A stretch of DNA of 64,000 nt, taken from assembly GCA_963281255.1 (NCBI GenBank), contig OY725501.1, positions 310,001 to 374,000 on the forward strand. Direction: 5' to 3'. The notes beneath the pieces were generated by a model that saw only the letters and a list, made by a program, of their open reading frames with translations, was not told the DNA's origin and ran no database searches. The DNA comes from Aphrocallistes beatrix (taxonomy: Eukaryota; Porifera; Hexactinellida; Sceptrulophora; Aphrocallistidae). This document shows, piece after piece, positions 23,177 to 61,379 of this stretch; the stretch's first letter is position 1; every line of letters begins with the position of its first letter. The translations under genes and the position numbers were made by a program.

Positions 23177-26100
23177 TCAGTTTTTAGTAATAGAACGAGT
23201 ATTCTTCTTTCCAGTCAGTTTTTTGACAGGAACTTTAGCAGCATTCGGTTTAGCTAACTTCTTAGTAGGAGATTTAGAAGTTGCCTTTTTAGTTTTCGGA
23301 CTCAGTTTTCTATTAACAAATAGGAAAATATGTAAGAAACTATTTTAAAAAATTGGGAATTTCTAACAGGAATATAATAAATCATTCGGGCTGTGCTAAA
23401 GTCAATTTCTAGTCCTAAATTCATTTGATCATTCTGTTAAAATTATTATCGCTTTGCCTAGAATCAAAATGAATTTGAATAGTCAGATCAAATGTCTCAA
23501 ATAAGGCAATACCAACAGTTATGTTCTAAGCAAACAGTTGTCAACTTTTTGGCTGTGGAACCTTATAGCAATTATTTAACGTAGGTGATCTTATTCTGGC
23601 AATTATATTGCATTTTTTGACAACCAATGGAAAGAATGGAATTTATATGCCAAAATAATGGTACACCCATTATTTAACATATTGACCGAGACTGTATATT
23701 TCAATAAGAAAATATGTAGAATTTGATCAGAAATGTGGAATTTGAATTAATATTGAAATTTTTCTGATCAAAATTCTACATATTTTCTGATCAAAATATA
23801 CAGTATCATGTTGACCTCATCGCATTAACCAAAATACGAATTTTGGTATCCTCTGGACACCAGGGATGGACATAGCAAACCAACTTACATCTTCTTAGGG
23901 CTGAGAGTAGATGCTTTAACAGAAGGCGATTGCCTCTTTCTATCACTTGTGCGAGTTGCACGGGTAGGAGGTAGCGCGAAAGAAACGGTCTTTGGTTCTA
24001 TTTTGACCGCAACTTTGGCAGCTTCCTTTTTAACTTTGACCGGTTCTTTTTTAATTTTGACAGGTTCTTTTTTAACTTTGACCGGTTCCTTTTTAATTTT
24101 GACAGGTTCTTTCTTAACTTTGACAGGTTCTTTCTTCACTTTTGTGGGCGAAGTTTTAACATTTGTCAAGACTGGCTTTTTTCGAATTCCAATTCGCTTC
24201 AAATTCTAAAATAAATTACCCAAAAATATAATCAGTAGTAGTATAGCATTCAGATTTAAAAGCATTAATCAAAATGATTTGGTGGAAAATGGTTTCCGTA
24301 CAGTATACAGTACAGTATATGGCAGTATACAGTACCCGGACAAAAGTATTCGACCACCACGGAAATCCCCATACAAATAGTAATAAAGTGGGTCTATTTG
24401 TAAAGGAATATGTACTCAGATTGGAAAAAATATTATTTTAAATAATAGAATATACGCATATTATTTTGAGTACATATTCCTTTATGAATAAATCCACTTT
24501 AATACCATTTGTTTAGAGGTTTTTGTGGTGGTCGAATACTGTTGTCCGGGTAGCACATTGGTATTCTAAAGAAATTTAATCATATAAAAAAAACCTTTTT
24601 GATCGGCGTTTTAGCAGGATTTATTGTAGAAGTAGTAGAAGTGAATACAGATGAGACATTCGGGGATGTCACAGTATTTGAGTTAGTTTTCGGCTGTTTT
24701 TGGTTTTCCAACTCGAGCTCAATGATCTTATCAATCATTTCAAGATAAGCTAAAACATTTCTTCTCAAACATCGGTCATACTACGAAAATCGAAAAAAAA
24801 ATGTATTACCTAGATTATTCGAGGCTAAAGATTTATCACCTAGCTCCTCCAACTCTTGGGTTATGTGCCTTCTAAAAGACTGAAATCTTTCCAAATGTTT
24901 CACTCCTTTCTTAGCAAAAATGTATTCATTTTGAAGATCGACAAAATGTGTCAATACTATAGCCTTTCTCAGTGCAATATCCGTAACTGAGGATTCCATT
25001 TTGACTGGGATATTCAATGTTGTGTGTTCTGAGGTATAAATATCCTGGAAACTTACCTTAACATTCACAACTTTGCCTAAAATATAAATGATCAATACAA
25101 CCAACAAAATTCAACAAATAATGAATTTTACTTGATATTTTGATAAAGAATGTAAAGTTACTAATCACTAATTATTCCATCACTCCAATATCTGTCAAAA
25201 ATTCGCAAAAAAAGTCGAAAGGACCGAAAAAGGCGTGAAAAGGGTGCGTCAAAAGCGCAACAAAAAGCTTCAAAAGGCGCGAATTAAAATTGAAACCAAC
25301 ATTATACCTGATTTATTAAGTTCTTTAAGTCTAAATAAGAGCACTCCTCCATTAATCTCTCCTGCTTCATTCTGAGCAGAGGCAAACTCAGAAGAAAGTG
25401 TGAATTGATCTTTTTTCTTCAAATTTGAAATCTCTGGAGAACCATAGCCTTTGGATAATTCAAAAAAATTATTCGACTTTGGTACCTCAACTTTGATTTG
25501 GAACGCCGTTATAGTCACATTGTAATCGAATTCTTTCCCTAGAACCTCAACAAACTCTTCTCCAATACTAGCACTAATGTAGTTTGCACCTATGTAAGAA
25601 AATGTAAAAAATTTGTTAAAGTGGGGTAGGAGGGGGTGTATGCAGGCTTTCATCCAGGAGTACTGGGAGCGCCTAGAGGCGCGTATTTGATCTCATGGAT
25701 CATAATTAGGCGTATGATTTTTGGGGGCTAGGCGCGTGGCACAAAACATATATAAAATTGCTATATAAAAATGAGTCTAGGCGCGTCGAAAAAATGGTGA
25801 CGTCCATTTAGGCGTATAACTTTGGAAAGCTGGATGAAACCTTGGGTGTATGGTAGGGCATTAGTCGATCCTCAAAAAAAGGGTCTAGATCCAGATCCCG
25901 ATCCTAACTAATAAAAGGATATTCGATCCGATCACGATCCCCAAAAAGATCTTTTCAAGTTTCAATAATAGTCAGAGGACTATCATTTTAGTACAGCTCC
26001 TGGAAGGAGATGCCTTATGGCATGGACGGCGTGCAACGTCCGTCCAGCCTGGGGCGTACTTAGTGCTTAAGTTAATATTCAAACCATAAAACACATTAAA

Positions 26101-29100
26101 AAATATATTTAATCAACATATATTTCAACACTTTCACCTCCAACTTGGGGATTAAAAAGAAAAGGATCGGATCGAATTCAGTAAAAGTTTCGATCCGATC
26201 TCGATCCTCAAAAAAAGGATCGCGATCCGGATCTTTCGATCATGGATCGAAAGATCCTAATGCCCTAGTGCAGGGCTGTCGGACTATATTTACTTCGGGC
26301 CGCAATACAGGGACGTGCACTCGGGATGGGTATGGATAGAAGCATTTTTGACAATTTGTATCGTGAACAATAGAAGCTAATATCTATTGAAAAGAACATC
26401 TCGTTTTCTCGTTGGTAGGGACCATGGTCTATCAGCCCTATGTCCCTACCAACGAGAAAACGAGATGCATGATATGGAAAAATTTGGAGAATTTGTCTAA
26501 AAGTGGGTAAAAAGGGGGAGATTGAAGCAGGCAACGCGGGCCGCCTGTTGGACAGCGCTGCACTAGTGTATGGTCTATTTTTTACCTGGAGTTGAACTGA
26601 TTTTCTGTACCAATGTTACATTGAAATCCATTCCAATTCCTACAACTGTAGTGTAGATATTGTTCTTAGAATTACTGGTGATGCGAGACAATAATGATTT
26701 CTCATCTGCCACACTATCCACAGTACTGTTAAGATCCGTCATGAAGATTATACGTGAGAACTCGTTCTTCTTTTCACCTAGAGATACATTTTAAAATGTT
26801 ATAACCATGACCTTACTTAAATAAATAAATACAGTAAACTCCGCTTAATCGGGACAACCGTTTTATTGGGACAAGTCTCCAGGAACGGAATAGTTCCCAT
26901 ACATAGAAGCTAATACTAAATTTCAGCGGTTAATTGGGAACTCCGCTTAATCGGGACACTTTGGTTCCGGATATTCTGTCCCGATTAAGCGGAGATCCCA
27001 ATTAACCGATGAAATTTAGTATTAGCTTCTATGTATGGGAACCATTCCGTTCCTGGAGACTTGTCCCGATTAAGCGGAGTCACCTGTATTTATAAATTAA
27101 TTAAATTCACCAGCTTTTTGTAGCATGTCTGAAGCCGTGTCGTATGCTAGAGATAAATTAGTCGCTCCAGTAGGCATCAGCACATCAATTTTATTCTTGA
27201 ATTCGGATTTAATAATGGTTTGCCACTTGGCGAGTTCTTGTTTACACAGAGCCTGAAGATAGTAGCTTTGAAATATACAGAGATAGCATAAGTAAAGAAA
27301 TTGTCCTATCAATTCCAATATATCGGAACTATAATACAGTACAAGGGCGTAGGGAGGAGCTCCCCCCTGGCTGGATGAAGTTTTAATATTCATTTAGTAA
27401 ATTATGAAATAATTGGTGAGAGGGGAGTGTTATCGGAGGTAATTTGTATTTCGAGAACCTCAAAATTAGATAAATCCGTCCAAATTGTGGGAAAAATTGT
27501 TGTTAGCTTCCAAGGGCAAAGCCTCTGGACCCCACTGGGGAGCTTACATCCCCCAGACCCCCCAGCTGGTTTATATACCCCCTACAAAAATTCCTGGCTA
27601 CGCCCATAACATAGTATGCTTATAATCATCAATTTTTAGTATTAAAAACCTGGGGGGGGGGGTAATAAGTAAAATATATATATATTGTCTTATTTTCGAT
27701 AATAAGCAACAGTCATGTTTGAAGGGCAACGATAAACGCTAGAGAATATATATTTAGCATTCTACGTACAAACCAACTCACCCTATCATCAAAGGCCACC
27801 AAACCGACAAAATCATTCTTAGTGAACTTATCACAGATAGCTTCCATACATTTCTTTGCCGCATCCAATTTGCTCTCATTATTCGCGGATTCATTTGACA
27901 TGAGGGAACCCATACTGCCTGAAATGTCGACTACGAGGAGGATGCTGAGACTAGGTCTTGGGTGCTTGTCCATACCAGAGCCGTCAAATTTCGACTTTAG
28001 CTTCATACAGAGCCAAGGTTCATTCTGCTTACTGATTGGGTTGATACTGTAGCCTAGTAACGGAAAAGTTTTGTGGTATGAACTAAAATATTTTTTATTA
28101 ATAGAGCGACACAATCAATATGCTGACAACGGTTGACAAACGGAAAGTGTCGATTCATTAGAACACTAACTAGTTAAGTTGGCCAATTCATTAAAAAAGG
28201 CAAGGAATTATGAATTATTCGAATAATTCGAAATTCAAGCATGAATTAGTCAATCATAAGCTGAGTTGACTAATTCGAATTATGAATTATTCGAAAAATG
28301 CATTCATATAATGTATGATATTTAATTGTAAAAAACTTTTTGAATAATTCATTAATTCGTGAAATAGTCAACTTAGCTAACTTGAGGTGTGAAAATGTGT
28401 ATATATTAATTTTAACATATAAGTATTACTATTAGTTATTAAGTGTAAAAATTGTATTCATAGTTCATTCTAGCAAAATTTGTTCTCAAATTCATTTTAA
28501 ACGATACAATATTTTTCCATAATAAATACATGCCAACTGTTCCGTTTGTGGTGGGACGTTCCACTTAATTATTATTATTATAGGATAATTTTCTCGAGTG
28601 TCTCGTTTTACATGAAATTTCTCCATTATATATCCCGCTTTTTTTGAGTCCATGTCTATAATACACTTGTAGTGTGTCCCGCCATTTCCCAATGCAATGC
28701 ATTCATGCCAACTTGAGCTGTGATGAAAGCGGGACGCAGCGTTGAATCTCGCGGGACATAATGGGTAAATTCCATGTTAAAGCAGGACACTCGCGAAAAT
28801 TAGCTCAATAGAAGAGTAAAAAAGCGGGACGTCCCGCCAAAAATGGGACAGTTGGCATGCATGCAATGGCAAAAATACACACTAATTCTATAATAAAAAA
28901 GTACAGCATTGATACCTGCATCAAACTGAGGTTTGAACGTTTCCTTGATGTGGACACCCATTGGGAAACCAAAAGTTCCGAAAACATTTTCATGGTTCAG
29001 ATACGAGGTTTTCACTTGAGGCTTTTTAGATGAAGTTTGGTAGGTAGCCGATTGCTGGCTAGTCATGTACTGACGAAATTGAGTAGGAGACCTGCAGGCC

Positions 29101-29162
29101 AATTGTTTCCTCGGGGCTTTGCCTCCAACAGATTTCCTTGCAGTCTGTTTTGTTCGAGCCAT
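23177..29162 (-). CDS. Histone H3-tail / von Willebrand A domain / SPKK-tail protein
   Basis: Nine exons: 28916-29162, 27782-28053, 27111-27252, 26586-26777, 25318-approx 25589 (donor at 25307), 24810-25076, 24595-24780, 23889-24205 and 23177-23309; about 679 codons. Residues 1-21 after Met read ARTKQTARKS-V-GGKAPRKQLA, the histone H3 tail with one change (T11V); K4, R8, K9, S10, K14 and K18 are kept. No histone fold follows. A linker leads to a VWA domain (about 117-300) with a complete metal site: DISGS at 125-129, TGATNL (Thr204) and MTDLNS (Asp235). A beta-rich region and a helical region with HFVDLQNEYIFAKKG follow, then six or so KKEPVK(V/I) heptads and SPKK/SPTKK motifs to the stop. 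All phases agree except at 24781-24809. The likely site is the nucleus. I know of no named protein with this layout; the function is unknown. Confidence 0.85.
23692..23808. mobile_element. Palindromic MITE (family L) in the last intron of the H3-tail gene
   Basis: The arms (GAAAATATGTAGAATTTGATC and its reverse complement with few changes) enclose AATTAATATTGAAATTT. Ends read CTGTATATTT / AAATATACAG. A related copy is at about 52617-52717. Confidence 0.75.
24334..24553. mobile_element. Tc1/mariner-like MITE (family D)
   Basis: Terminal inverted repeats ACCCGGACAAAAGTATTCGA and TCGAATACTGTTGTCCGGGT with subterminal CCACCAC/GTGGTGG. The centre is AT-rich. Other copies or ends are at 18905-18990 and 30792-31261. 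Confidence 0.85.
25854..26267. mobile_element. hAT-like element rich in GATCC words
   Basis: Ends TAGGGCATTAG and CTAATGCCCTA are perfect inverted repeats. The target duplication GTGTATGG is at 25846-25853 and, after another element inserted at its right edge, at 26566-26573. The interior repeats GATCC/GGATC palindromic words. Confidence 0.8.
26271..26560. mobile_element. hAT-like element nested at the edge of the preceding one
   Basis: Ends CAGGGCTGTC and GACAGCGCTG. The 8-bp flanks CCCTAGTG (26263-26270) and CACTAGTG (26561-26568) differ by one base. Positions about 26397-26465 contain an internal inverted repeat, CATCTCGTTTTCTCGTTGG and its complement. Confidence 0.75.
26831..27088. mobile_element. 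MITE family A, two arms
   Basis: Starts ACAGTAAACTCCGCTTAATC and ends CGATTAAGCGGAGTCACCTGT; a central pair of ...TTAATTGGGAACTCCGC... blocks gives a partly self-complementary element in an intron of the H3-tail gene. Confidence 0.85.
28170..28385. mobile_element. Diverged family G palindromic element
   Basis: Shares GAATTATTCGAA, GTTGACTAATTC and TAGTCAACTTAG with the better preserved copies at 37497-37731 and 62524-62742. Termini are hard to place. Confidence 0.55.
28525..28868. mobile_element. Family F element with GTCCCGC blocks
   Basis: Two partial copies of a repeat containing GTGTCCCGCCATTTCCC, ACATAATGG and GGACAGTTGGCATGC. Ends are an inverted ATGCCAACT/AGTTGGCAT. The same family appears at 2992-3150, 35085-35320, 43757-43913 and in pieces elsewhere. 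Confidence 0.7.
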
Positions 29163-30231: not shown

Positions 30232-33200
30232 TCACCATAATACTGGTATTTCTACATTCGAAAACTCTTCTGCTCTTGAAGTAAAGTAATTTTCTTTATA
30301 AACCCAACTATCTTCGTTATTAGGATGTTTTGAAAAAAAGTTTGGGGTCCAAATGATGCCTGATTCTTCTCTTTTAGCTCTCGCATCTCTCTGAATTTGT
30401 TCGATGCGTTTCTTCTCTTCTTCAGCTTCTGATAGCTGGCCTTGCTCTAATAACTGTTGATCAGGACGAAATCGAGAATCACATCTACATTGTATGGGAG
30501 AATTTTAAAAAGTCAAAAAATCATCTACTTACTAGAAACATATCAACATACTGTATATTCCCGAATAGTAGCCGTGACGAAAAAACAATGTTCCGAAGGG
30601 ATAGAAAAATAACACCCTCTTTAAGATTATTCGAAGGCCGGAAAAAATTATAGTCATATACGATATATATATATATATATGTTACAGTCAATCTGTGTAA
30701 TCAGTTATTTCACGAAATACCTAGTAATTTCGTGAGATCACTAGGCACTTTATGAAATCCCTAATTTCACAATCTGACTGTAACATATACACTACCCGGA
30801 CAAAAGTATTCGACCACCACGAATACTTCCATACAAATAGTATTAAATTAGATCTATTAAAAAAGGAACATGTCCTTAAACAATAGAAAATACTCTTTTT
30901 TTAGTTTCAATTCGTAATCTACACATTCTAATTACTCATAATTGAGAGTTTCAACTTAATTACTTATTCTTATGTAGAAAATTATCAACCTATGCCACTT
31001 TGTGTCACTAAACGTCATCATATATAATGGCTGTGACTTGGGACAAGTAGCATCAAGTATCAAATGTTGATATTTATTAACTTGGGAGTTAGTAATTAAG
31101 CTGAGGCTATCAATTATGAGTAATTAGAATGTGTAGTTTACGAATTTGAAATAAAAAATAGAGTATTCTTTACAGTTTGAGTACATATTCCTTTATGAAT
31201 AAACCCACTTTAATACTATTTGTATGGCGGTTCCTGGTGGCTGAATACTTTTGTCCGGGTACTGTACATATGAGAGAAGTTTAATAGTAGTAGAGCATAG
31301 CTTTATAACAAAAACTTCAAACAACTATCTTTTAAACTCTCGTTAGAGGAGGAATTATGGTCTGCCAAACATAAAACTCAATTTTGAACTGAGCGTCATA
31401 CTATCATATCGGAGTATACGTATATATCCAATATAAAGTATAGGAACCGCACTACAAAAGTATCATATGTAATTCAAATCATGTGCCTACATACTTTGGA
31501 AGGTTTGATCTCAGTTCTTCAGGTAAAAAGTTCAATTCGATAGCAAAATTTGAGAATCCGTAGAAATTCTCAAAACCTGGTGGCATAGGATTTGGTCTCC
31601 AGATACAAGAGTGCTCTCCATTCTCAGATCCAGTGTAGATTCCTTCTCGTAGCATTCCAAATATGTGGCGAACCTAAAATCAGTTAGCACATTCAAACTA
31701 AGGCCAAGGGTAAGATTGGGAATCATAGGAAGGCCAAATTAAGGTCCCCAAATGTGACCACAAAGATCCTATCCAGTATTATGACTTACATGCCAACTTG
31801 AGCCATTATAAAAGCGGGACGGGGTGTTGGATTTCGCGGGACATGGCGGGACGCATAGGAAAGTATTAAGCATGGAAAGGAATGGACATAGTGGATGCTT
31901 TTCAACTTTACTATCCAAAATCCACCATAATCAGGTGATGTATGATTATGGTGGATTTTGGATAGTAACGTTCACCCATAATACAAAACTATATAATCAT
32001 TGGGCATGCCTAATTTCTGGGACGGGACAGGACCGTCCCTGAAAATCTTGATACCTAATTTCCGGGACGGGACGGGATCCCGTCCCGGAAATTAGTATCT
32101 TAACCCGTCCCGTCCCGGAAATTAGGTACCTTTTCTGTCCCGTCCCGGAGATTAGGTACCTTTTCTGTCCCGTCCCGGAGATTAGGCATCTTGACTCGTC
32201 CCGTCCCGGAAATTAGGTACCTAGATTTTCGGGATGGTTCCGTCCCGTCCCAGAAATTAGGCATGCCCTAATCATTGAAACATAACTGTCACATTGGTGC
32301 GTCAATTTGTTATTATATAATGTTGTCTAAGAGTTATACCCAACTTGTCCTTCCTCCTTTACGAAGTTAACATAAAATATAACCTTTTCTCCTGCACTAT
32401 CGGAGATATCTCCTTTAATATCATACTTCTTGGTGCTGAAGTACCCACTTTTGAGGAGATTGACATGACAGCTAAAACCTGTATTCGTACAGTTAATGAC
32501 CATATCTCCGTAATTCTCTATCCATCTGTTTTGAAAGCTCAACACGTTGTGAACGCATGTTGTCACTTTCTTCCAAGTGTAATGTTCTTCGAAGTTTGGG
32601 AGTAGAATATTGATGGTGCCTTGGGAAATAAAGGTTTATAAAGAAATCATATAATTATGCGAAAAATACAAATACAGGCGACTCCGCTTAATCGGGACAC
32701 TTTGGTCCCGATTAAGCGGAATTCCCAATTAACTGATGAAATTTAGTACAGTCAACCCCGCTTAATCGGGACAACCGCTTACTTGGGACAAGTCTCCAGC
32801 AGGGTTCCCTCTAAGGATCCAAAAATTTCGGGCCGACCGGCTGGCGCCGGCAGGGCATCGGCCACACCGTTTTCAAAAACAAATTATATCGGCCGACAAA
32901 TGTAGGGGTGTAACTAGGTTCAGCCCCAATGTACGTCATTTGATCAATGGCATGTCTGGAGGGGCTCTTGTTTAAGGAATCGATTTTTTTCATATTTTTT
33001 ACATTTGTTTATCGGCCGGCCATCGGCCGAAATCCAGTCAAAATCGGCCGGCCGTCCACCAAATTACCAAAATATCGGCCGGCCGGCCTTAGAGGGAACA
33101 CTGGTCTCCAGGAACGAAATGGTTCCCATACATAGAAGCTAATACTAAATATAATCGGTTAATTGGGAACTCCGCTTAATCAGGACAAAATATCCGGAAC

Positions 33201-45700: not shown

Positions 45701-48700
45701 GTCTAATTTTACTAAATAATCAGTAAGCTTGAGTAAATTATTAGTAATGTATTCTAATAATATTAATAAAAATTAGTAATTTTAGTAACTATCACTTTTC
45801 GAAAAAGGAAATAGATCGAATTGCAGATTTAGGAAATAGTTCGACTTTTTATCATAGGATTAATGGTGGGTTTTTTTCGAACTAATATTTCCTTTTTTGG
45901 AAAGTCGAACTATTTCCGGTTTTTGTGCGAACTATTTCCACCATACCCGGTGTTATACTGAATATTTAACCGTACCTGCATAATAACTTGAAATATTCCG
46001 CAGAGGTATGTGCGTGATCTTTCGCGGTAGTATCCAGGGCCGAAACTAAAAGTTCAACAAAAGCCACTGGAATATTGGGATGAGTAGACTTGACTATTAG
46101 CATATTGAACTGATCAAATGCTGTCGTCCTAACAGCTTTCATTCTACATCTGAGTAGAATGTCGAGCACGTAATTCCTCCATTCTTTCTGATTCTGTGCA
46201 AGCTCAGGGAAATAGTCAGGAATTAGTGTTAGAATTATACAGAGGGATTCGATAGCTTCTTTGGCAAGCGTGATCTATACAAAATGTATTGAAAATGTTA
46301 ATGGACGGATAGGCAGAGGACGGGACAAAGAGACGTATTTAGGGACAAAAGGATACACGTACTAATTGATGTACAAAAAAACTGAGAAATAGACAAACGT
46401 ACTAATTGATGGACAAAAAAACGGAGAAATGGACACACGTACTAAGCAGGGTTGCCGTGGGAATGGGAATCTGTGGGTATTCCCATGTGGGATGGGAATG
46501 ACTTTAAGCCTATGGGTATTCCCACATGTGGGTTCTGTGGGTTTTTCTGTGGGTTTCTGTGGTTTTTTTTGTGGGCTTCCTGTGAGTTCTGTGGGTTTTT
46601 GTGGGTATTCCTACAGAAATCCTGTGGGAATGGGATGGGTATTGAAATTCCATTCCCGCGGCAACCCTGGTACTAAGTGATGGACGGACGGATAAACAGA
46701 CAGATGTGTGGAGCAAAGGACAAAGGAATATATTTATGGACAAAGGGAAATGCATACTAATGTACGAGCGGAATATGTACACAAATGAACCTACCTCTTC
46801 ACCCTCTAAAAGTTTAGTGAAAGAAGGCTGGTCTTTAGGGATTTTTCCAACCTCAATTTTAGAAATATCTTTGAGGAACGGAAAAACTCCCAAACTCACA
46901 CCCCATGATAGCCGTATCAGAGCATGGGCAAGCTGATTCCAATCTATCTGAGGTTCGGGAGTTATTCCTCGTAGGGTGCCGAGATTTTTGGCAAAATTTC
47001 GGAGGATCGTTTCTGTATTCGGGTTTGGGATACCTTTGAGAGCCTCCTATATAGTAAGAGAAATTTGTTAAGTCTTGTATTTAAACTTTGGTTAAACGAA
47101 TCATAAACGGGCATGCCTAATTTCCGGGACGGGACGGAATCATCCCGAAAATCTAGGTACCTAATTTCCGGGACGGGACGAGTCAAGTGCCTAATCTCCG
47201 GGATGGGACAGAAAAGGTACCTAATTTCCGGGAGGGACGGGTTAAGATACCTAATCTCCGGGATGGAACAGAAAAGGTACCTAATTTCCGGGAGGGACGG
47301 GTTAAGATACCTAATTTCCGTGACGGGATCCCGGAAATTAGGTATCTAGACGTCCCGAAATTAGGCATGCCCATCATAAACACTGAAAATAAAGATGGAA
47401 AATTTACCTGCAATTGCAAAGCAGCATTATACTCATCATTAGGAGTCGTTTTCTCCTGTTTTTTAATCTGCAGCGTAAATCTATACAATCTCGCATTGGC
47501 AACGCTGGTAAACAGAAGCTTAGAGCATTTCAGCAGTGTAATATAGGCTGCTTTCTTCATTTGATAGTCAGCTGCTGCCATGAACTGATTATCGATCAAG
47601 AGATCCGATACGAGCCTAGATAGAAGCATAATTTAATAACTACAGTCGACTCCGCTTAATAGGGTCACATTGGTCAGGGAATATTTTGCCCCGATTAAGC
47701 GTAGAACCCTATTAAGCGAAAATATTTTGTATTAGCTTCTATGTGTGAGAGCTATTCCAGTCCTGCAAAAAGTGGCCTGATTAAGCGGCTGATCGGATTA
47801 AACAGTGACCCTATTAAGCGGAGTTGACTGTATATCAAGCCCAGCGTTTCCCGCCGAGCGCGTTAAGCGCGCTATTTAGCACGCTTAACTTATCGAATAA
47901 AGTGATTTTGTTGTTAAATAATGCAATTTACCGAAATATACCGCACAAAATTGCAAAAATTAACGCGCTTTACAATAATTCTGAGGGAAACACTGATCAA
48001 GCCTAAAACTGCCGGCTATTTTTAAGACATATATTTCGGGTATAAATTAAGCGAATCTTCTCATAATTTAGCCAAAATTTGCTCTTTAAAAATGGTAAAT
48101 TTTGATTTGTGACGATCTCTTAAGTCAGGATCATCATACCCATGGTTTTCTCAAAAAAATGTTACGGAGGAAAAATTGCTCGCCGGATAATTCAGAAGCT
48201 GGACACTATGAAAGAGCAATCGTCTCGGTATTTACAATTAATGTATTTGTTCTAAGTACAGGAAATTATAATACCTGATACCATATCCATTTACGAAATT
48301 CTTTGGGAAATCCTGCAAATGATTCCCACTATTTTCGCTGGCAGGTAGTAGTAGTGTGTGTATAATCTCAAGCATGTACAGGACTTTGCAAGAGTCGCTG
48401 GCTAAGAAGATAGCGAGCAACTGCTCGTAAGTACAGGCATGTTCTTGACTTATCTGTTGGAAGATTCTAGAAAGAGAAATCAAAAAGTAAGAAGTCTTGG
48501 AAGAGAGTTAAAAATAGGGCCAAAAGATTTTCCCCAGGTTACTGATAGAGGATATACGCAAGAGCATAGCCAAGCAGGGGCGCCGAACTTTCCGAAATCT
48601 AAGGACAATTTCGGGGTTCCAGGGGGGCTCAGCCCTAAATTTTGTATTGCGTCTATGGGCCATCTTCGAATCCAAGGGAGAGTCGAGCCCCACCAGCCCC

Positions 48701-54700: not shown

Positions 54701-57700
54701 ATTCAATTCGTTCAAAGCGTTCATTTTTCCTGAGAACGAACTGAGTCGCAATAGACGTAGAATCATCTCGAGACGCAAATGGTCGATTCGCTCTATTAAT
54801 TCTTGTCTCGGCTCGCGAATCTTTTTGAGAATAGATTTGAGGAAGATTAATGTTGAGCTGAATGCATCTGTACGTGAGGATTCACTTTTTCCTGTTTCCT
54901 TTTTCAGGTCTTCATCTGTGAGATTTTCAAGGTATTCAGTAGCCTAGATTCAAAGAAATATAAATCTTACTTTGAATTATTTTGCTATCTCTGTTTCAGA
55001 TGGCATTAAACAGCTTTACAAAAAATATCGGAAATTTTGATGATTGGGCCTTTTTCAATATATGAGAAACGAACGAAGTGAACGAAAATTTCCCTAAAGC
55101 TTATTCCTCCAGATATATCAGGCAAAATTGGTGCGGTGGGAGTTATGCTATGCACCTCCTACCCACATACTAATTCCCCATCTAGCTATGCCACCGAATA
55201 TTGTCCAATAAATAAGCCTGATTTTATCCAAAAAAATTAAGTAACATCCTGAGGAAAATCCTGATTATAATAACGTTTCAAAATACAGTGACTCAGCTTA
55301 ATAGGGTCACTGTTTAATCGGGTCAATCGCTTAATCTGGCCACTTTTGGCAGGACCAGAATAGCTCTCACACACATAAGCTAATACAAAATATTTTCGGT
55401 CAACAGGGTTCTCCACTTAATCGGGGCAAAATGTCCTCTGATCGATGTGACCCTATTAAGCGGAGTCGACTGTATACCAACACTACACTTACCATCTCTA
55501 CCACTGGCAGCATATCTCTATTCAGACAGGTCTGTGTCAAGTATTCAGCACAATTTCCCCAAGGTTTGACCAGCAGGCACAGCAGAATCAAATTCATCTC
55601 CTGGTCCTTTGTAGGGGTGCAAATTCGTTTCCTGAGTTTATCGAACCCGCCTAACCGTCCGAATATGTTGATTAGGTCAACGAGCCAACCTCGCGTTGGA
55701 CAACCTGGAGAGGAGAAAAAATTTTTTTAAATTATTCATATGAATAATATAAAAGTGGCGGTCAACAGACCGATGGTACAGCTCTAGATGATCCAGATAA
55801 ATCAAGGTGTGAAAATTAAAGATATTCATCTTTGAATAAGTCATGAAATAGTTTTATTAGAGATTTTTTAAATTTTAAAGTCGGCTATGGTTAAAGATCC
55901 TATACATCCGTTGAAATCCCATTAAAGCCTTTATTAAATATACATAACTTAAAGGTGTGAAAGATGAATATATTCGTGTAAAAAGTGTTTAAATTTCGAC
56001 AAAATAACCTAGTTTGCACATCTACGCAATAAAGGGATCCTACATACCAAATTTAATATAAATCGGACTGTAAGATTTCGCAGAATAGCGCGTACGGACG
56101 TACATACGTACTATACTATCCATGCCATAATGCATTTCCCCATAGAACTTGCACTAAAAAGTACATTTCAAATATATACATTTACCTTCAGGACAGTATG
56201 AATACAAACTCTCAGAGAAAGGATCTGACTCAGGAATGCAGTCGTACTGTTTCTCGTGTGTGATGTGATGATGAAAATGATGCGTCACCCTCACAGTACG
56301 CGGTAGCTTAGCTGCATTATACATATGGAAGCGAGAAGATGGGTAGAGTCCAATATGAAGCAGTTCTAGTAATGCTAAGTCATCATCCAACATCTTGACA
56401 GCACACAGTCTTATGAGCAGGAGGAGACAGTCATTGATGGCTAGTTGTATGTGATGTTTCCATCCGTATACTGCATCGTCGGTTAGAACCTATCGTGAGA
56501 CAAAGATAGAGATATATTTTGGGATTCCTAAGGACCAGATGTGTAGCGAGGGTGTGATACATGCGGCCAATGCCTCAATCAGGGGTTCATCTATCTCAGT
56601 GGTTCCCAACCTGGGGTCCATGGACCCCTTAGTGGTCCACAGAAGGTATCAGGGGGGGAGGGGTCCACAGGATTCTAAACTTTGTATTCTGGTTAATAGG
56701 AAGGGGCCCACAGAAATCGGAAAATTGCTTGATACTCAACCGATTTAAGTAGTCTTTATGGTTTTTATATGATAGAACGAATCAATAGAAGTACTTTAAA
56801 AATCATTTGATTGATAAAAGTACAGTAGAACATCGCTAATACAAACAGATATGTTATCCTCTACAAAGGAGAATGCATGTAAATCACTACGGTTAATACG
56901 AATTCTGGATAAAATGGAATATTTTTGACCTTCCCCTTGTGTTTGTATTTCTACTGTAGTTTAAAATCCTACCTTTTGGAATGAAATCGTGAGTCCTTCG
57001 CGATAAAACTTCTTAGAAGAGTCACAGAATGTATCCACACCCAATTCAGCCAGCTTAATACAAGCCTTCAGCAAATGTTCCAGCTCCGAATTGGGCAGAA
57101 CAGGGATAATCCAATGCGGTTTATTCACCAAATCGTCCAGACGCTTCAAGGTATCCTCTGGAAAGGGGGGAGGTGTTTCCATGGTAGCTGTCTTTGGGTC
57201 ATAACCGTTGAGATTGAGGATATCAGTTGAAAGTTGGATATCGCATAGAACTTCCCATTTCTCGACTAACTCTTGCATTTGAGTGATGCGGATGTGTTGT
57301 TGTGGCTGCGGCTGTGAAAGGGAAATCTGCGTAAATAAATACAATTGACTCCGCTTAATCAGGTCACATCAGGCCAAAAATTTTTTAAATCTTAGATGCT
57401 CAAATATCGATATACAGCTATTGTTGTAACTAGGGAAAAGAAAATCTCGGACTATAGTGGAAGAAAAATGTAATTGGGATATATATTTAGACTCAATTAA
57501 CATAATTTTGGGGTTTAGTTGTAACCTATAAGTTTGTGTGGAGTCCTGCCATACCACAGCTTCCTCCACTGTTCCATTGCCCAGCACCACGGCCCCCCAG
57601 GGTCCAAACCTAGGGGGGGCGGCCCCCCCTAGGTACCCACACTTGGCGCCTATGACCCAGTGGCAGCGCGAGGGTGAGGCTAGGTCAGGTATGATGTAAA

Positions 57701-60700
57701 ATACCTGAATTTCAGGCATTATGCATAATAACTGATGGATAATGCTTGGAATTTTCAGGTATTATATATAACAGGGCCGTAGCCGTGGTCAGGTTGAAAC
57801 CGGACCAACCGGACCGGTTCGGTTTCAATCTGACCACTTTTGACCAATTTAGCCTCAAAAGGGACCATTTTGTAAGATCGGACAGGTTTCAACCTGACAA
57901 CCTTTTAGTCTCAAACGGACCACTTCACACCTGGTGACTACGGCCTTGCATAATAACTGGAACTTTCCAGGTATTTTATATAATAACTGATTTGACGTTT
58001 TAACTGTAGGCCCTGACTTGAAAATATAATTTTGTACAGTCAGGGTTGCTTATTGTGAACCACCAGGGGACCAAAAAATCTGTTCATAATAGATACTTCA
58101 TATTAGGCGAACTTGATTCAATACAAATCCTATCTAAAAAATGAAATTGGGACCAGGAGGTTAGTTCATAATAAACGAATGTTCATATTAAGCGGGGTCA
58201 TATTAAGCGACCCTGACTGTATTCGCTGCGTTTCCTACATACACCACTCAATATTCTCACCTGTGTGTGTGTTGTGACAATACTGCTTCTATCATTATTA
58301 TTAACAATCCGAGTGATGGGAACGGCAGCATTACTCTCTTTCGTGTCTGGAGAATTATTCGAAACGTTTGGATCAGGCAACGCTCGTTCGAGATTCATAT
58401 TCTCATCTTCTTGCTCCTTCTCTGGAGTAGAAGGAGTCACTCTAATCTCTAGATTCTGGAATCTAATGGAGAGATAGGAGAAAACGATTATTTAAGACAA
58501 ACACTGTATATTCTGGGGGCATGCCTAATTTCCGGGACGGGACGGCATCCCGTCCCGGAAATTAGGTACCTTTTCTGTCCCGCCCCGGAAATTAGGCATA
58601 TTAACCCGTCCGTCCCGGAAATTAGGCATATTAACTCGTCCCGTCCCGGAAATTAGGCATATTAACCCGTCCCGTCCCGGAAATTAGCATCTTAACCCGT
58701 CCCGTACCGGAAATTAGGTACCTTTTCTGTCCCGACCCGGAGATTAGGTACCTTTTCTGTCCCGTCCCAGAAATTAGGTATTTTAACCCGTCCCGTCCCG
58801 CAAATTAGGTACCTTTTCTGTCCCGTCCCAGAAATTAGGTATCTTAACCCGTCCCGTCCCGGAAATTAGGCATGCCCATATTCTGGATATAAAAATCTGT
58901 TTGTGAACATTAACTGTAGAATGCCCAGCATTTATATGACTTCACTTGCATAGAAAATGGCTGGGAGACATCCGCGATATCAGGGACACTGTGCCCAATT
59001 CTACGGTTAATGTGTCACACCGAATTGACCAAATATAATGAAAGGCGAACTATGGACGTATTTATATTGCCAAAACGAGTTAACCTTTTTAATTGAGACT
59101 CTAACTAGCTCGAGGTAGTCACAAAAGACTCATAATTAACTCAACTGGCAAGTAATAGACAAGTAATGCCTAAAGTTCTAAAACCAATTTAAATTTTTTT
59201 AGTGTCTGAAACTCAATCTTTCTTGAGGCAGTGACAAATAGACCCCTAAGGGTACCGAATTTACTGTCATAGACAACTATGGACAAACTTATACTGCCCA
59301 AACTTATTGAAATTTGACTCAAGCTTACTACTCTACTAAAATAAGGATATGCCTAATTTCCGGGATGGGACCATTCCAGAAAATCTGAATACAGTACCTA
59401 ATTTCGGAATGGAAATTGACTCGTCCCGTCCCGTAAATTAGGCATCTAGATTTTCTGGGTCAGTTCAATCCCGTCCTGAAAATTAGGTATCAGTGGAGTC
59501 TCCCAAAACGGACACTCCGAATGGTAAATTCATTCCGTTCCACGAGGTTTGTCCGTTGTAGAGGGGACAACACCTCTCCAACGGAAAAACCTCGTGGAAC
59601 AGAATCAATTTACCATATAAGTATGTAATAGTCAAGCACTCTCCGAGAAACAGACATCTCTCTAACGAACAAAAGTCATGGGGTATGGTGGAAATAGTTG
59701 GCAAAAAAACGGAAATAGTTCGACTTTCCAAAAAAGGAAATAGTTCACTTAAAAACCCACCATTAATCCTAATGATAAAAAGTCGAACTATTTCCTAAAT
59801 CTGCAATTCGAACTACAGTCGACTCCGCTTAATTGGGTCACTGTTTAATCGGGTCAACCGCTTAATTGGGCCACTTTTGGCAGGACCGGAATAGCTCTCA
59901 CACATAGAAGCTAATATAAAATATTTTCGGTTAATAGGGTTCTCCGCTTAATTGGGGCAAAATGTTCTCTGACCGATGTGGCCCTATTAAGCGGAGTCGA
60001 CTGTATTTCCTTTTTCGAAAAGTCGAACCATTTCCGCATTACCCATGTCTCCAATGTGTCTGCTATAGGAGACCAACATACACATAGGGGACACGGTTTT
60101 TGTCGTTGTAGAGAGATGTCTGCTTCTCAGAGAGTGCTTAACTATCACATACCGTAAACTGGGGCTACTTTGGCCCTAAGAGGTTGCTTTGTCCCACAAT
60201 AGCAATTTTAATAAAATATACTCAAACTTATGAATCAATGTAATCACATTGATAATATGTTGAATGAAACTCTCAATATATCCAAAGGTATTCAAACCGC
60301 AATATTTCTAAGTTTGAGTATATTTTATTAAAATTGTCATTGTGGGATAAAGTCGCCTCTTGGCGGCCAAAGTCGCCCAGTTTACGGAACTATGTCCCAC
60401 TGTACCCTGAAAATAAGTTTCCAGGAAACTTTGTCTCTCTAATCTTACTTGTTATTGAGCTGATTCCCGATCTCATTGATGGGAGGAGCAGGGTGAATGG
60501 GAGCTTCTGGTCCGTAACCTTCGTCAGTGGAGGAATGTCCACCATCTGAACCTGTGTTCTCTCGAAAACTGGCATCCATACTGTCAAAATCTTCCCGAGA
60601 CAATTCCGGAACATCTTCCGTGCTGACGTTAGAGTCTGTTGATATCATTGTACTCACACCTATGGGAGACATTTTAAAATTTACAAAAGATACGCATACT

Positions 60701-61379
60701 TTCCAACCATCCCGGAATTTTACATAGAAGCTAATACAGTAGAACTTCGTTCTATGGGGCATGCCTAATTTCCGGGACGGTACGGGTTAAGATGCCTAAT
60801 TTCCAGGACGGGACGGGTTAAGATGCCTAATCTCCGGGATGGGACAGAAAAGCTACCTAATTTCCGGGACGGGACGGGTTAAGATGCTTAATTTCCGGGA
60901 CGGGACGGGTTAAGATACCTAATTCCCGGGACGGGAGGAGTCAAGATGCCTAATCTCCGGGACGGGACAGAAAAGGTACCTAATTTCCCGGACGGGACGG
61001 GTTAAGATGCCTAATTTCCGGGACGGGATCCCGTCCCGGAAATTAGCCATGCCCGTTCTATGAACACGGATAAGATGAACAAATTTCAAACGTCCCCTGG
61101 TACTCGTATTAACAAGAGAACTCTGCTTAATCGGGATAAAATATCGAAACTTGATGTGCCTCAATTAAGCGGAGTCGGTTATACTAATTTCAGCTAATTC
61201 TCTAATTAATAGGCATTTACAGTATTTGAAAATTCCTGTCAAAACATCCTACCTTGTGCGGTACTAGTATCCTGAGTGGATGTAGTCGGTGAGCTAGAGA
61301 GCTCCGTAGAGATCTCTGCTTCATTTTTCTCCTGTGAAGAGGGAGAGCTGCTTGGGGGGTTCGGGGGCTGTTCGGACAT
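39799..61379 (-). CDS. USP9X: Ubiquitin-specific protease USP9X / fat facets
   Basis: Very large deubiquitinase that removes ubiquitin from trafficking and signalling substrates. I assembled 21 exons, in transcript order 61253-61379, 60449-60659, 58261-58462, 56973-57311, 56186-56489, 55493-55704, 54516-54943, 53610-54017, 52871-53030, 51713-52127, 50765-51108, 49952-50323, 49151-49431, 48275-48466, 47408-47615, 46795-47046, 45976-46274, 43996-44341, 43060-43705, 42418-42774 and 39799-42035. They total 2,779 codons with every phase matching; human USP9X is near 2,570. The long N-terminal helical part carries blocks such as [15 protein letters not shown] and [23 protein letters not shown] ubiquitin-like module is encoded at 49952-50323. 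The catalytic domain has [13 protein letters not shown] (Cys1767), zinc-finger Cys pairs CKDC and [14 protein letters not shown], and [13 protein letters not shown] (His2077). The extra length lies mainly in the acidic/Ser-rich N-terminus. The renalase gene lies in intron 17. Confidence 0.97.
42785..42880. repeat. Palindromic repeat in USP9X-like intron
   Basis: TCGAAACCGATTTTTTAGC... is paired with ...AAAAACCGGTTTCAACTGTA around TTCTTACTG. A related hairpin is at about 62380-62470. Confidence 0.55.
43757..43913. mobile_element. Family F element
   Basis: Full copy: starts ACATTCCAACTGTCCCG, contains GTCCCGCGAAATTCAACGC and ends AAGTTGGCATGTATGC. It is in the USP9X-like intron before the catalytic-Cys exon. 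Confidence 0.8.
44642..45706 (+). CDS. RNLS: Renalase-like FAD amine oxidase, intronless, nested antisense in USP9X
   Basis: One open frame of 354 residues in the intron between USP9X-like exons at 45976-46274 and 43996-44341, on the opposite strand. The N-terminus has an FAD-binding Rossmann start ([16 protein letters not shown]), then [14 protein letters not shown] and CDIGAQYFT. Further blocks matching human renalase are [47 protein letters not shown] and [18 protein letters not shown], the last being the C-terminal FAD-contact region. Length matches the usual 340-350. Renalase oxidises dihydro isomers of NAD(P)H. The ATG at 44642 is the first in frame and follows an A-rich leader. Vertebrate renalase genes have several introns, so this copy may derive from a retroposed transcript, or introns may simply have been lost. 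Confidence 0.95.
   Translation: MLQQKTCLIGGGISCALTAYILSNKLTQKQLKPTEIQIRAKDIGGRMLTKAHPNFPNLTCDIGAQYFTTQIENEATKSFYQILMENAIIREYVGQISGGMHVENLTHFVAKKGTKSVVDYFFENAKIDSIQGNVSKIEIMEDGILISDENKTDLFTSVIITIPIPDLMQIEGNIKDVLLQPKFHTLKQAQYSSRYALALFYTKEISTPFKNAMTYVKEHPIIRFISVDNQKREISHQGTSILIHTSVPFGIENAKRDTEEVKNIVLHSLQLLYPQLPHPDDVYCHWWEVSQVFKPVKDTNFDFKDEILNSEGSMVINLNPLIILCGDIFTKSGLDGCIMSAVNACEKFACVNSV
45790..45957. mobile_element. Family M palindromic element, uninterrupted copy
   Basis: Arms CGAAAAAGGAAATAG...GAACTATTTCC with GGATTAATGGTGGGTTTTTT in the centre. The copy at 59690-60045 carries a family A insertion, so this one shows the empty site. Confidence 0.75.
46447..46669. mobile_element. hAT-like element with GTGGGTTTCTGTGG internal repeats
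   Basis: Ends CAGGGTTGCCGTGGGAATGG and CATTCCCGCGGCAACCCTG, perfect 8-bp duplication GTACTAAG at 46439-46446 and 46670-46677. One terminus of the same family is at 50705-50729. Confidence 0.92.
47108..47372. mobile_element. Family E minisatellite transposon, copy 2
   Basis: Target duplication ATCATAAA at 47100-47107 and 47373-47380. The internal units run GGGACGGGTTAAGATACCTAA, in inverse orientation relative to the copy at 32002. Confidence 0.9.
47641..47832. mobile_element. MITE family A
   Basis: TACAGTCGACTCCGCTTAAT at the left, AAGCGGAGTTGACTGTA at the right; TA flanks. Confidence 0.88.
48764..49049. mobile_element. hAT-Charlie-like MITE
   Basis: Ends CAGGGGTTCTTAAACTTTTT and TAGTTTAAGAACCCCTG; a TCTAGAA word flanks both sides. 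Such CAGNGGTTC ends are typical of animal hAT elements. Confidence 0.85.
49790..49916. mobile_element. MITE family A, short copy
   Basis: GTACAGGTGACTCCGCTTAA to AGCGGAGTTGACTGTA; adjacent to a separate repeat at 49700-49789 (CGGACATCTCTCTACAACGG). Confidence 0.82.
51369..51573. mobile_element. Family I hAT-like element, 205 bp
   Basis: Perfect 8-bp duplication GTTGGCAT (51361-51368 and 51574-51581) inside a family F copy. Starts CATGGGTTTATCTAGGATTT, ends GCACCTAGATAAACCTCTG. Confidence 0.93.
52287..52491. mobile_element. Family I hAT-like element, 205 bp, nested
   Basis: Perfect 8-bp duplication ATATCGCG (52279-52286 and 52492-52499). It splits an older palindromic repeat whose uninterrupted copy is at 58918-59010 (CATCCGCGATATCAGGGACA in inverse orientation). 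Confidence 0.94.
55284..55475. mobile_element. MITE family A
   Basis: Left TACAGTGACTCAGCTTAATA, right TTAAGCGGAGTCGACTGTA; close in sequence to 47641-47832 and 59813-60005, forming a subfamily with GGGTCA instead of GGGACA. Confidence 0.86.
58037..58219. mobile_element. MITE family C
   Basis: CAGTCAGGGTTGCTTATTGT to ATTAAGCGACCCTGACTG, TA flanks, in the USP9X-like intron before exon 3. Confidence 0.88.
58516..58877. mobile_element. Family E minisatellite transposon, longest copy
   Basis: Target duplication ATATTCTG at 58508-58515 and 58878-58885. About ten units of roughly 31 bp, alternating TTAACCCGTCCCGTCCCGG and TTTTCTGTCCCG variants. Confidence 0.93.
59813..60005. mobile_element. MITE family A inserted in family M
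   Basis: Inserted at a TA inside a family M copy (59690-60045). The uninterrupted copy at 45790-45957 reads across the site, so the insertion event and its TA duplication can be seen directly. Confidence 0.92.
60153..60386. mobile_element. Palindromic MITE with ACCGTAAACTGGG ends
   Basis: CCGTAAACTGGGGCTACTTT at the left and AAAGTCGCCCAGTTTACGG at the right, with further arm pairing (TATTTTATTAAAATTG). It is a long imperfect hairpin. Confidence 0.8.
60757..61054. mobile_element. Family E minisatellite transposon in USP9X-like intron 1
   Basis: Target duplication GTTCTATG at 60749-60756 and 61055-61062. Units GGGACGGGTTAAGATGCCTAA repeated about eight times. Confidence 0.93.

Follow-up and report, generated by a model that had tools for sequence, protein, structure and literature searches.

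Histone H3 tails on VWA cores: a eukaryotic protein family in which an H3 N-terminus may serve as bait for chromatin factors

A gene of the glass sponge Aphrocallistes beatrix encodes, with near certainty, a protein in which the N-terminal tail of histone H3 is joined to a VWA core. The gene lies within the window, the stretch of 64,000 nucleotides analysed here, and was at first taken for a peculiar single protein; it belongs instead to a widespread family with relatives in sponges, rotifers, fungi and algae. At the level of sequence, this family displays the fusion itself, a clustering of tail carriers in one clade, a metal site that is intact and, in most of its members, a U-box or RING domain. 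It is proposed, tentatively and with rather more doubt than conviction, that these proteins constitute an undescribed eukaryotic system of histone-tail-baited ubiquitin ligases, in which an authentic H3 N-terminus, captured early in eukaryote history and shown on a VWA core, would trap enzymes that read, write or erase H3 marks for ubiquitination, while sponges would have kept bait and core and replaced the ligase by a basic tail, yielding a decoy or adaptor.

The window gene consists of nine exons on the minus strand, running from 29162 to 23177, whose joining gives one open reading of 668 amino acids (computed mass 74.3 kDa, pI 9.9), and all eight introns are GT-AG. Exon 1 (28916..29162) encodes Met and the H3 tail, an anchor segment and the start of the VWA core. 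Residues 1-22, MARTKQTARKSVGGKAPRKQLA (29097..29162), are Met followed by H3 residues 1-21 with T11V as the sole change, an identification that draws on sequence match, a search of PDB chains and codon comparison. An initiator Met is removed before Ala, and by sequence match the H3 tail would thus occupy the mature N-terminus of the window protein. When the protein was compared with PDB chains, 132 matches were obtained at E<=1, the best 60 of which were all H3 or H3-like (best 6.5e-06). Residues 18-36 (29055..29111) are predicted, from AlphaFold2 models of two homologs, to form a helical anchor behind the exposed tail. The VWA domain (Pfam match 4.8e-14) begins its first half in exon 2 (27782..28053), which carries the DISGS motif of the metal site (residues 125-129, 27914..27928), and continues through exon 3 (27111..27252) with Thr204 and exon 4 (26586..26777) with Asp235. 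Both the fold and the metal-site pattern DxSxS...T...D place it among VWA domains, and the full metal site described in the initial annotation is right, D125, S127, S129, T204 and D235 being present in 71 of 71 proteins of the family alignment.

The remainder of the core was assigned from the gene model together with a homolog AlphaFold2 model and, for exon 5, Foldseek: exon 5 (25308..25589) encodes the end of the VWA domain and part of the beta-sandwich, exon 6 (24810..25076) beta-sandwich and helical parts, and exon 7 (24595..24749) the end of the helical part and the start of a disordered tail. Exon 8 (23889..24205) encodes basic disordered tail, as judged from C-terminal composition, and contains a 21-bp tandem repeat of 6.3 copies (24011..24142), located by a repeat scan, whose VKKEP/IKKEP units conform to the SUMO consensus and make up the KKEPVK heptads reported at the outset. 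The basic C-terminus, its SPxK motifs (by motif count) and the stop codon lie in exon 9 (23177..23309). Among the SPKK motifs previously described, one is strict (S621) and the others are SPxK, and the likeness of this C-terminus to a linker histone has not stood up, as Pfam gave no linker-histone match at E<=1. At the same threshold, Pfam found in the window protein no histone fold (PF00125), no linker-histone winged-helix domain and no RING or U-box, so that membership of the histones and of the linker histones is ruled out; its matches were to VWA families and, below its own cut-off, to Ku_N.

The gene is flanked downstream by a Brix-domain gene and upstream by an oxysterol-binding-protein gene, in a genome of 100.5 Mb in 28 contigs. 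Elsewhere in this genome just three weak matches to the VWA region were found (contigs C8 and C2), and the gene therefore appears to be single copy. Several further features of the locus were recorded. Repeats of the GCTTAATCGGGAC type recur at window positions 26840-27080, 32758-32791, 55291-55344 and 59827-59875, and among them, in intron 3 of the gene, an inverted-repeat-like element was seen by eye. Arrays of 30-31 bp units (CCTAATTTCCGGGACGGGACGGGTTAAG and its complement) occur in both orientations at 58548-58872, 60761-61028, 47155-47328 and 32078-32222. About 10 kb past the window end, a diverged, CENP-A-like H3 (43% to H3, without the H3 tail; C15:384343-384693) shares its locus, L012, with an open frame that by eye resembles FG repeats.

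Whether the joint is real is the first matter to be settled, as exon 1 might have come from a separate histone gene or its tail might have been newly copied from H3, and the joint of the window gene itself is read from genomic DNA. The tail, with its T11V change, is spliced in frame into the VWA domain as initially annotated, exon 1 ending at 28916 and exon 2 starting at 28053. The second half of exon 1 (TSYLNHENVFGTFGF...) encodes VWA core common to the tail-bearing relatives; it is thus no free-standing histone exon, contrary to the suspicion that it belonged to a separate histone-like gene. Compared with H3 genes of the same genome, exon 1 is alike in 21 of the first 22 residues and differs in 11 of 21 codons from the C1 copy and in 9 of 21 from the C18 copy, which argues that the tail was not recently copied. 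The nearest protein found, from the glass sponge Oopsacas minuta (60% identity over 98%; 78% over residues 1-85, the exon 1 portion), carries MARTKQTARKSSGGKAPRK, and a C-terminal pattern KSPxKKLAKxNxxKVPVKKL, seen by eye in this ortholog and in the window protein, lends support to exons 8 and 9. Absence of the joint from all relatives had been named as grounds for abandoning the fusion, an objection removed by its presence in orthologs and in transcript-derived entries from MMETSP (P0013, P0023, P0042) and from EukProt/Trinity assemblies (P0011, P0021, P0027, P0043, P0078, P0123, P0125). An artefact of the gene model is accordingly scarcely credible.

The carriers of the tail that have an organism name come from sponges (Oopsacas, Oscarella, Corticium, Sycon), bdelloid rotifers (Adineta, Rotaria), fungi (Endogone, Jimgerdemannia, Cladochytrium), a green alga (Cymbomonas) and a chlorarachniophyte (Chlorarachnion reptans; P0078, taxid 29199). 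A homolog search returned 308 proteins at E<=1e-3, and 93 among the 120 of these matches listed have the tail, defined here by eight or more H3 residues among the first 12. Together with 37 new proteins from a second search and the window protein, the 120 make up 158 rows, of which 110 agree with H3 at nine or more of 18 residues and count as tail-bearing, and 48 do not. All family proportions refer to proteins retrieved and listed: candidates, up to about 8000 per search, were picked by shared five-residue words, some of them from the tail, and as both this retrieval and the rule of H3 resemblance favour good tails, the share of tail-bearing members is uncertain and the percentages are upper estimates. 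The contrast between tail positions is less exposed to this bias than the absolute percentages. A search for proteins with the H3 N-terminus gave 1113 matches, and nearly all among the 120 listed have a histone domain, so that this search is no measure of how specific the VWA partner is.

Ten of the 48 tail-less rows start at or after the expected end of the tail or anchor and by eye look truncated (P0006, P0012, P0062, P0082, P0086, P0099, P0122, P0128, P0137, P0154), P0128 and P0154 being the least clear. Among tail-less rows that do not look truncated, two have an organism name and both are bacterial (P0110, Clostridia; P0142, Uhrbacteria); P0153, a tail-less relative of eukaryotic source (EukProt), falls outside the tail clade in the 95-row tree described below. 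Two unusual proteins were also recorded. P0158, a metagenome protein of 406 amino acids, consists in part of four imperfect H3-tail-like repeats (ARKSTGGKAPRKQLAT and variants), and no VWA or other Pfam domain was found in it at E<=1. P0091, a Rotaria member, has a PI3/PI4-kinase match after the VWA domain and no RING match, and may be a gene-model fusion.

In a tree of 56 rows from which the tail columns had been removed, 40 tail rows and 16 tail-less rows were split by one branch with support 100/100, present in all of 200 bootstrap trees. The 40 were hand-picked for spread from 71 tail rows, leaving out the long-branch P0028 and 30 others, and the 16 came from 24 tail-less rows, leaving out P0012, P0086, P0137, P0117, P0118, P0153, P0156 and P0157. 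A quick tree of the 95 rows among the 158 that passed length and 62% identity filters recovered the same clade (SH-aLRT 98) together with three truncated-looking tail-less rows, P0012, P0086 and P0137, whose position inside the clade means that four changes are needed in that tree. With unrooted trees of these sequences, a single gain of the tail is the simplest reading and, as no root was inferred, falls short of proof.

As to where the tail came from, P0135 and P0065, which belong to one subclade, keep PHRYRPG[TS]VALREIR, a stretch of H3 that leads up to its first helix and into it, and P0135 has a Pfam Histone match over residues 7-55 (7.4e-05; 23.4 bits, below the 26.4 cut-off). These remnants suggest that the tail descended from a real H3 gene and did not arise by convergence, with a later second capture of H3 in this subclade as an admissible alternative. 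Other sources were considered and rejected. In a scan for tail patterns, 77 viral stretches matched and none encoded a relative, and the window gene, spliced and situated in a 100.5-Mb genome, is not virus-encoded as viral histone mimics are. MARTKQTA matched 13 stretches in the GTDB genome collection, and none of the seven loci returned as relatives had a VWA domain; five, in metagenome-assembled bins, code for ordinary H3, complete or in part, and the other two are short frames of 36 and 32 amino acids.

The pattern of conservation within the tail is informative as to its role. In ungapped counts over the 110 rows already called tail-bearing, the H3 residue is kept at A1 in 107, R2 in 110, T3 in 109, K4 in 107, Q5 in 110, T6 in 109, A7 in 108 and R8 in 108. 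Beyond these, the counts are 91 for K9, 103 for S10, 90 for T11, 105 for G12, 109 for G13, 92 for K14, 106 for A15, 100 for P16, 101 for R17, 74 for K18, 63 for Q19 and 29 for K23. The tail starts at residue 1 in 101 of the 110 rows, and its 17 residues are identical to H3 in 58. Over 71 non-redundant rows, mean conservation was 0.98 for A1-R8, 0.89 for K9-R17, 0.51 for the VWA domain and 0.40 for residues 23-50, and 770 pairs with 30-35% core identity averaged 88.8% over the 17 tail residues. Exceptions exist: the sisters P0124 and P0127 have weaker tails (Gly1; Arg4 or Tyr6), and the Jimgerdemannia paralog P0143 keeps MARTKQTA only. Near the C-terminus, second H3-like motifs were found in two of 120 proteins scanned (P0011, KQTARKQTARKQTARK; P0018, TRTKQTARR), and in the same scan P0055 showed ARKST only.

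Non-basic docking residues have thus outlasted the lysines that are usually marked, a pattern that, as far as sequences can tell, fits a docking peptide for factors that take hold of H3 by its free N-terminus and speaks against any role depending on K9, K14 or charge alone. The suggestion that the protein borrows the H3 tail code is in keeping with A1-R8 as the most conserved part, and a central part for K9 modification across the family finds no support, position 9 being another residue in 19 of 110 rows. The pattern also bears on the possibility that no code is involved and that the tail serves as a signal for nuclear import or as a binding site for an importin or a histone chaperone. H3 tails help nuclear import, and the end of the glass-sponge protein is otherwise basic as well; on the other hand, the non-basic T3, Q5, T6, A7 and G13 (108-110 of 110) outlast K9, K14 and K18, and the sponge C-termini already contain basic clusters resembling nuclear signals, so that import appears an improbable explanation.

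The tail might alternatively work as a reporter, being methylated, acetylated or phosphorylated by H3-modifying enzymes, so that the marks on it turn the VWA core or the ligase on or off and the protein senses chromatin-enzyme activity. A tail of this length suffices as a substrate for H3K4 enzymes, K4 and T3 are kept in 107 and 109 of 110 rows, and two homolog models place a folded anchor next to the tail. Positions 9, 11 and 14, which depart from H3 in 19, 20 and 18 of 110 rows, nevertheless make a family-wide readout of those marks unlikely, and we regard such sensing as possible and rather unlikely. AlphaFold2 gave mean pLDDT values of 73.9 for the Oopsacas ortholog, with residues 1-13 disordered, and 87.2 for the U-box member P0020, with residues 1-8 disordered; both models place helices at 18-21 and 26-35, followed by VWA, beta-sandwich and helical core, and P0020 then ends in a U-box (Pfam, residues 573-638 of 640). 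The low confidence of the tail tip in both models means that no contact between tail and core is confidently predicted, which weakens the sensing role and likewise the notion that the tail binds its own VWA domain in autoinhibition. The latter could draw on the co-occurrence of tail and VWA in every tail row of the 56-row tree, although the query by whose similarity these rows were gathered itself contains both. Acidic ligands are preferred by VWA metal sites, the tail has no acidic residues, and self-binding is, all told, very improbable. For the core, the best Foldseek matches were ArnAB (8s05, titled as an archaeal ortholog of the Sec23/24 core motif) and the bacterial 4fx5, and a second structural search gave mostly single VWA domains, the wider core being spanned by 4fx5 and inter-alpha-inhibitor heavy chain 1.

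What follows the core differs among members. Pfam scans of 71 non-redundant members gave a ligase-type domain for 47, namely a U-box in 38 and a RING in nine others (P0007, P0011, P0029, P0051, P0057, P0060, P0124, P0125, P0127), and the domain lies C-terminal of the core in all 14 proteins with coordinates. Neither domain was found in six sponge-clade proteins, of which the window protein, P0001, P0004 and P0005 were scanned and P0002 and P0003 were covered by precomputed Pfam columns. Lys and Arg account for 33% of the final 120 residues in both glass sponges. Residues 501-668 of the window protein hold seven psi-K-x-E SUMO-consensus sites, six of them in one tandem array (shuffled controls: mean 0.41, maximum 4 in 2000); the P0001 tail has two (FKIEP, IKVEP), and none were found in the corresponding tails of P0002-P0005. 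A SAP-like DNA-binding motif, noticed by eye in bdelloid members, was dropped after Pfam gave no match up to E 5 in ten proteins.

Taken as bait, the exposed tail would dock proteins whose hold on the H3 N-terminus lies around A1-R8, candidates being H3K4 demethylases, methyltransferases or PHD readers, in a manner analogous to SNAG peptides on LSD1, and the rest of the protein would act on the docked factor; we hold this to be evenly poised between right and wrong. That the tail recruits such factors is suggested by its conservation and by analogy. The VWA core may bind a further partner, and in ligase-bearing members the ligase domain would ubiquitinate the captured factor or its neighbours. 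This main mechanism may not extend to the window gene, given that the ligase is absent from sponge proteins; their lack of a ligase, their basic tail and the SUMO-consensus sites in two glass sponges lead us to propose that the sponge form may be an adaptor on chromatin or a decoy that competes for factors binding the H3 tail.

The N-terminal residues of H3 are regarded as a code written on nucleosomes. A copy of a histone tail may also serve cells as bait for proteins of chromatin, and if this is so they could address H3-tail-binding factors away from nucleosomes, and the reading of H3K4 antibodies and peptide pull-downs would be affected in these organisms. The natural pattern of kept and lost tail positions would, moreover, provide a ready-made mutational scan of docking needs.

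The family can be set against several known systems. Histone H3 and the window protein are alike in the first 21 residues apart from T11V and part ways thereafter, the window protein having no histone fold. The prokaryotic VWA proteins P0110 and P0142 have no H3 tail and, by eye, start with hydrophobic segments, and no U-box or RING is listed for them in the precomputed Pfam columns. Among plant ubiquitin ligases, RGLG and WAV3 are of the VWA-RING type. In a survey of plant RING proteins, group FHH02 likewise combines VWA and RING in a single chain, as do RING members of the present family, where U-box or RING follows the core; in this comparison by description, the portions of the survey considered make no mention of an H3 tail (PMC6118397). 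UHRF1 joins the H3 N-terminus to ubiquitin ligation and, in the account drawn on here, reads the tail in trans, whereas in the present family the tail is part of the ligase-like protein (PMC5012860). The words histone and VWA are absent from the main text of two glass-sponge genome papers by word search, and no description of an H3 tail fused with a VWA, U-box or RING domain was found in the open-access literature among the matches listed, by titles and abstract starts, a scope that leaves subscription journals mostly outside. As we could find no family with an authentic H3 tail displayed on a non-histone core, the arrangement is rated as new. The closest likeness is that of SNAG-domain factors such as SNAI1 and GFI1, whose exposed N-terminus, according to the sections of the sources used, takes the place of the H3 tail in docking the demethylase LSD1 (PMC5896174, PMC12612597), filling its cleft in a manner blocked by a P2A change (PMC5896174). 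By this analogy, an H3-like N-terminus working as a docking hook has a precedent, SNAG being, in those sections, a short mimic on transcription repressors, whereas the tail of the present family, which in 58 of 110 rows is identical to H3 over 17 residues, is carried on a VWA core and often accompanied by a ligase domain.
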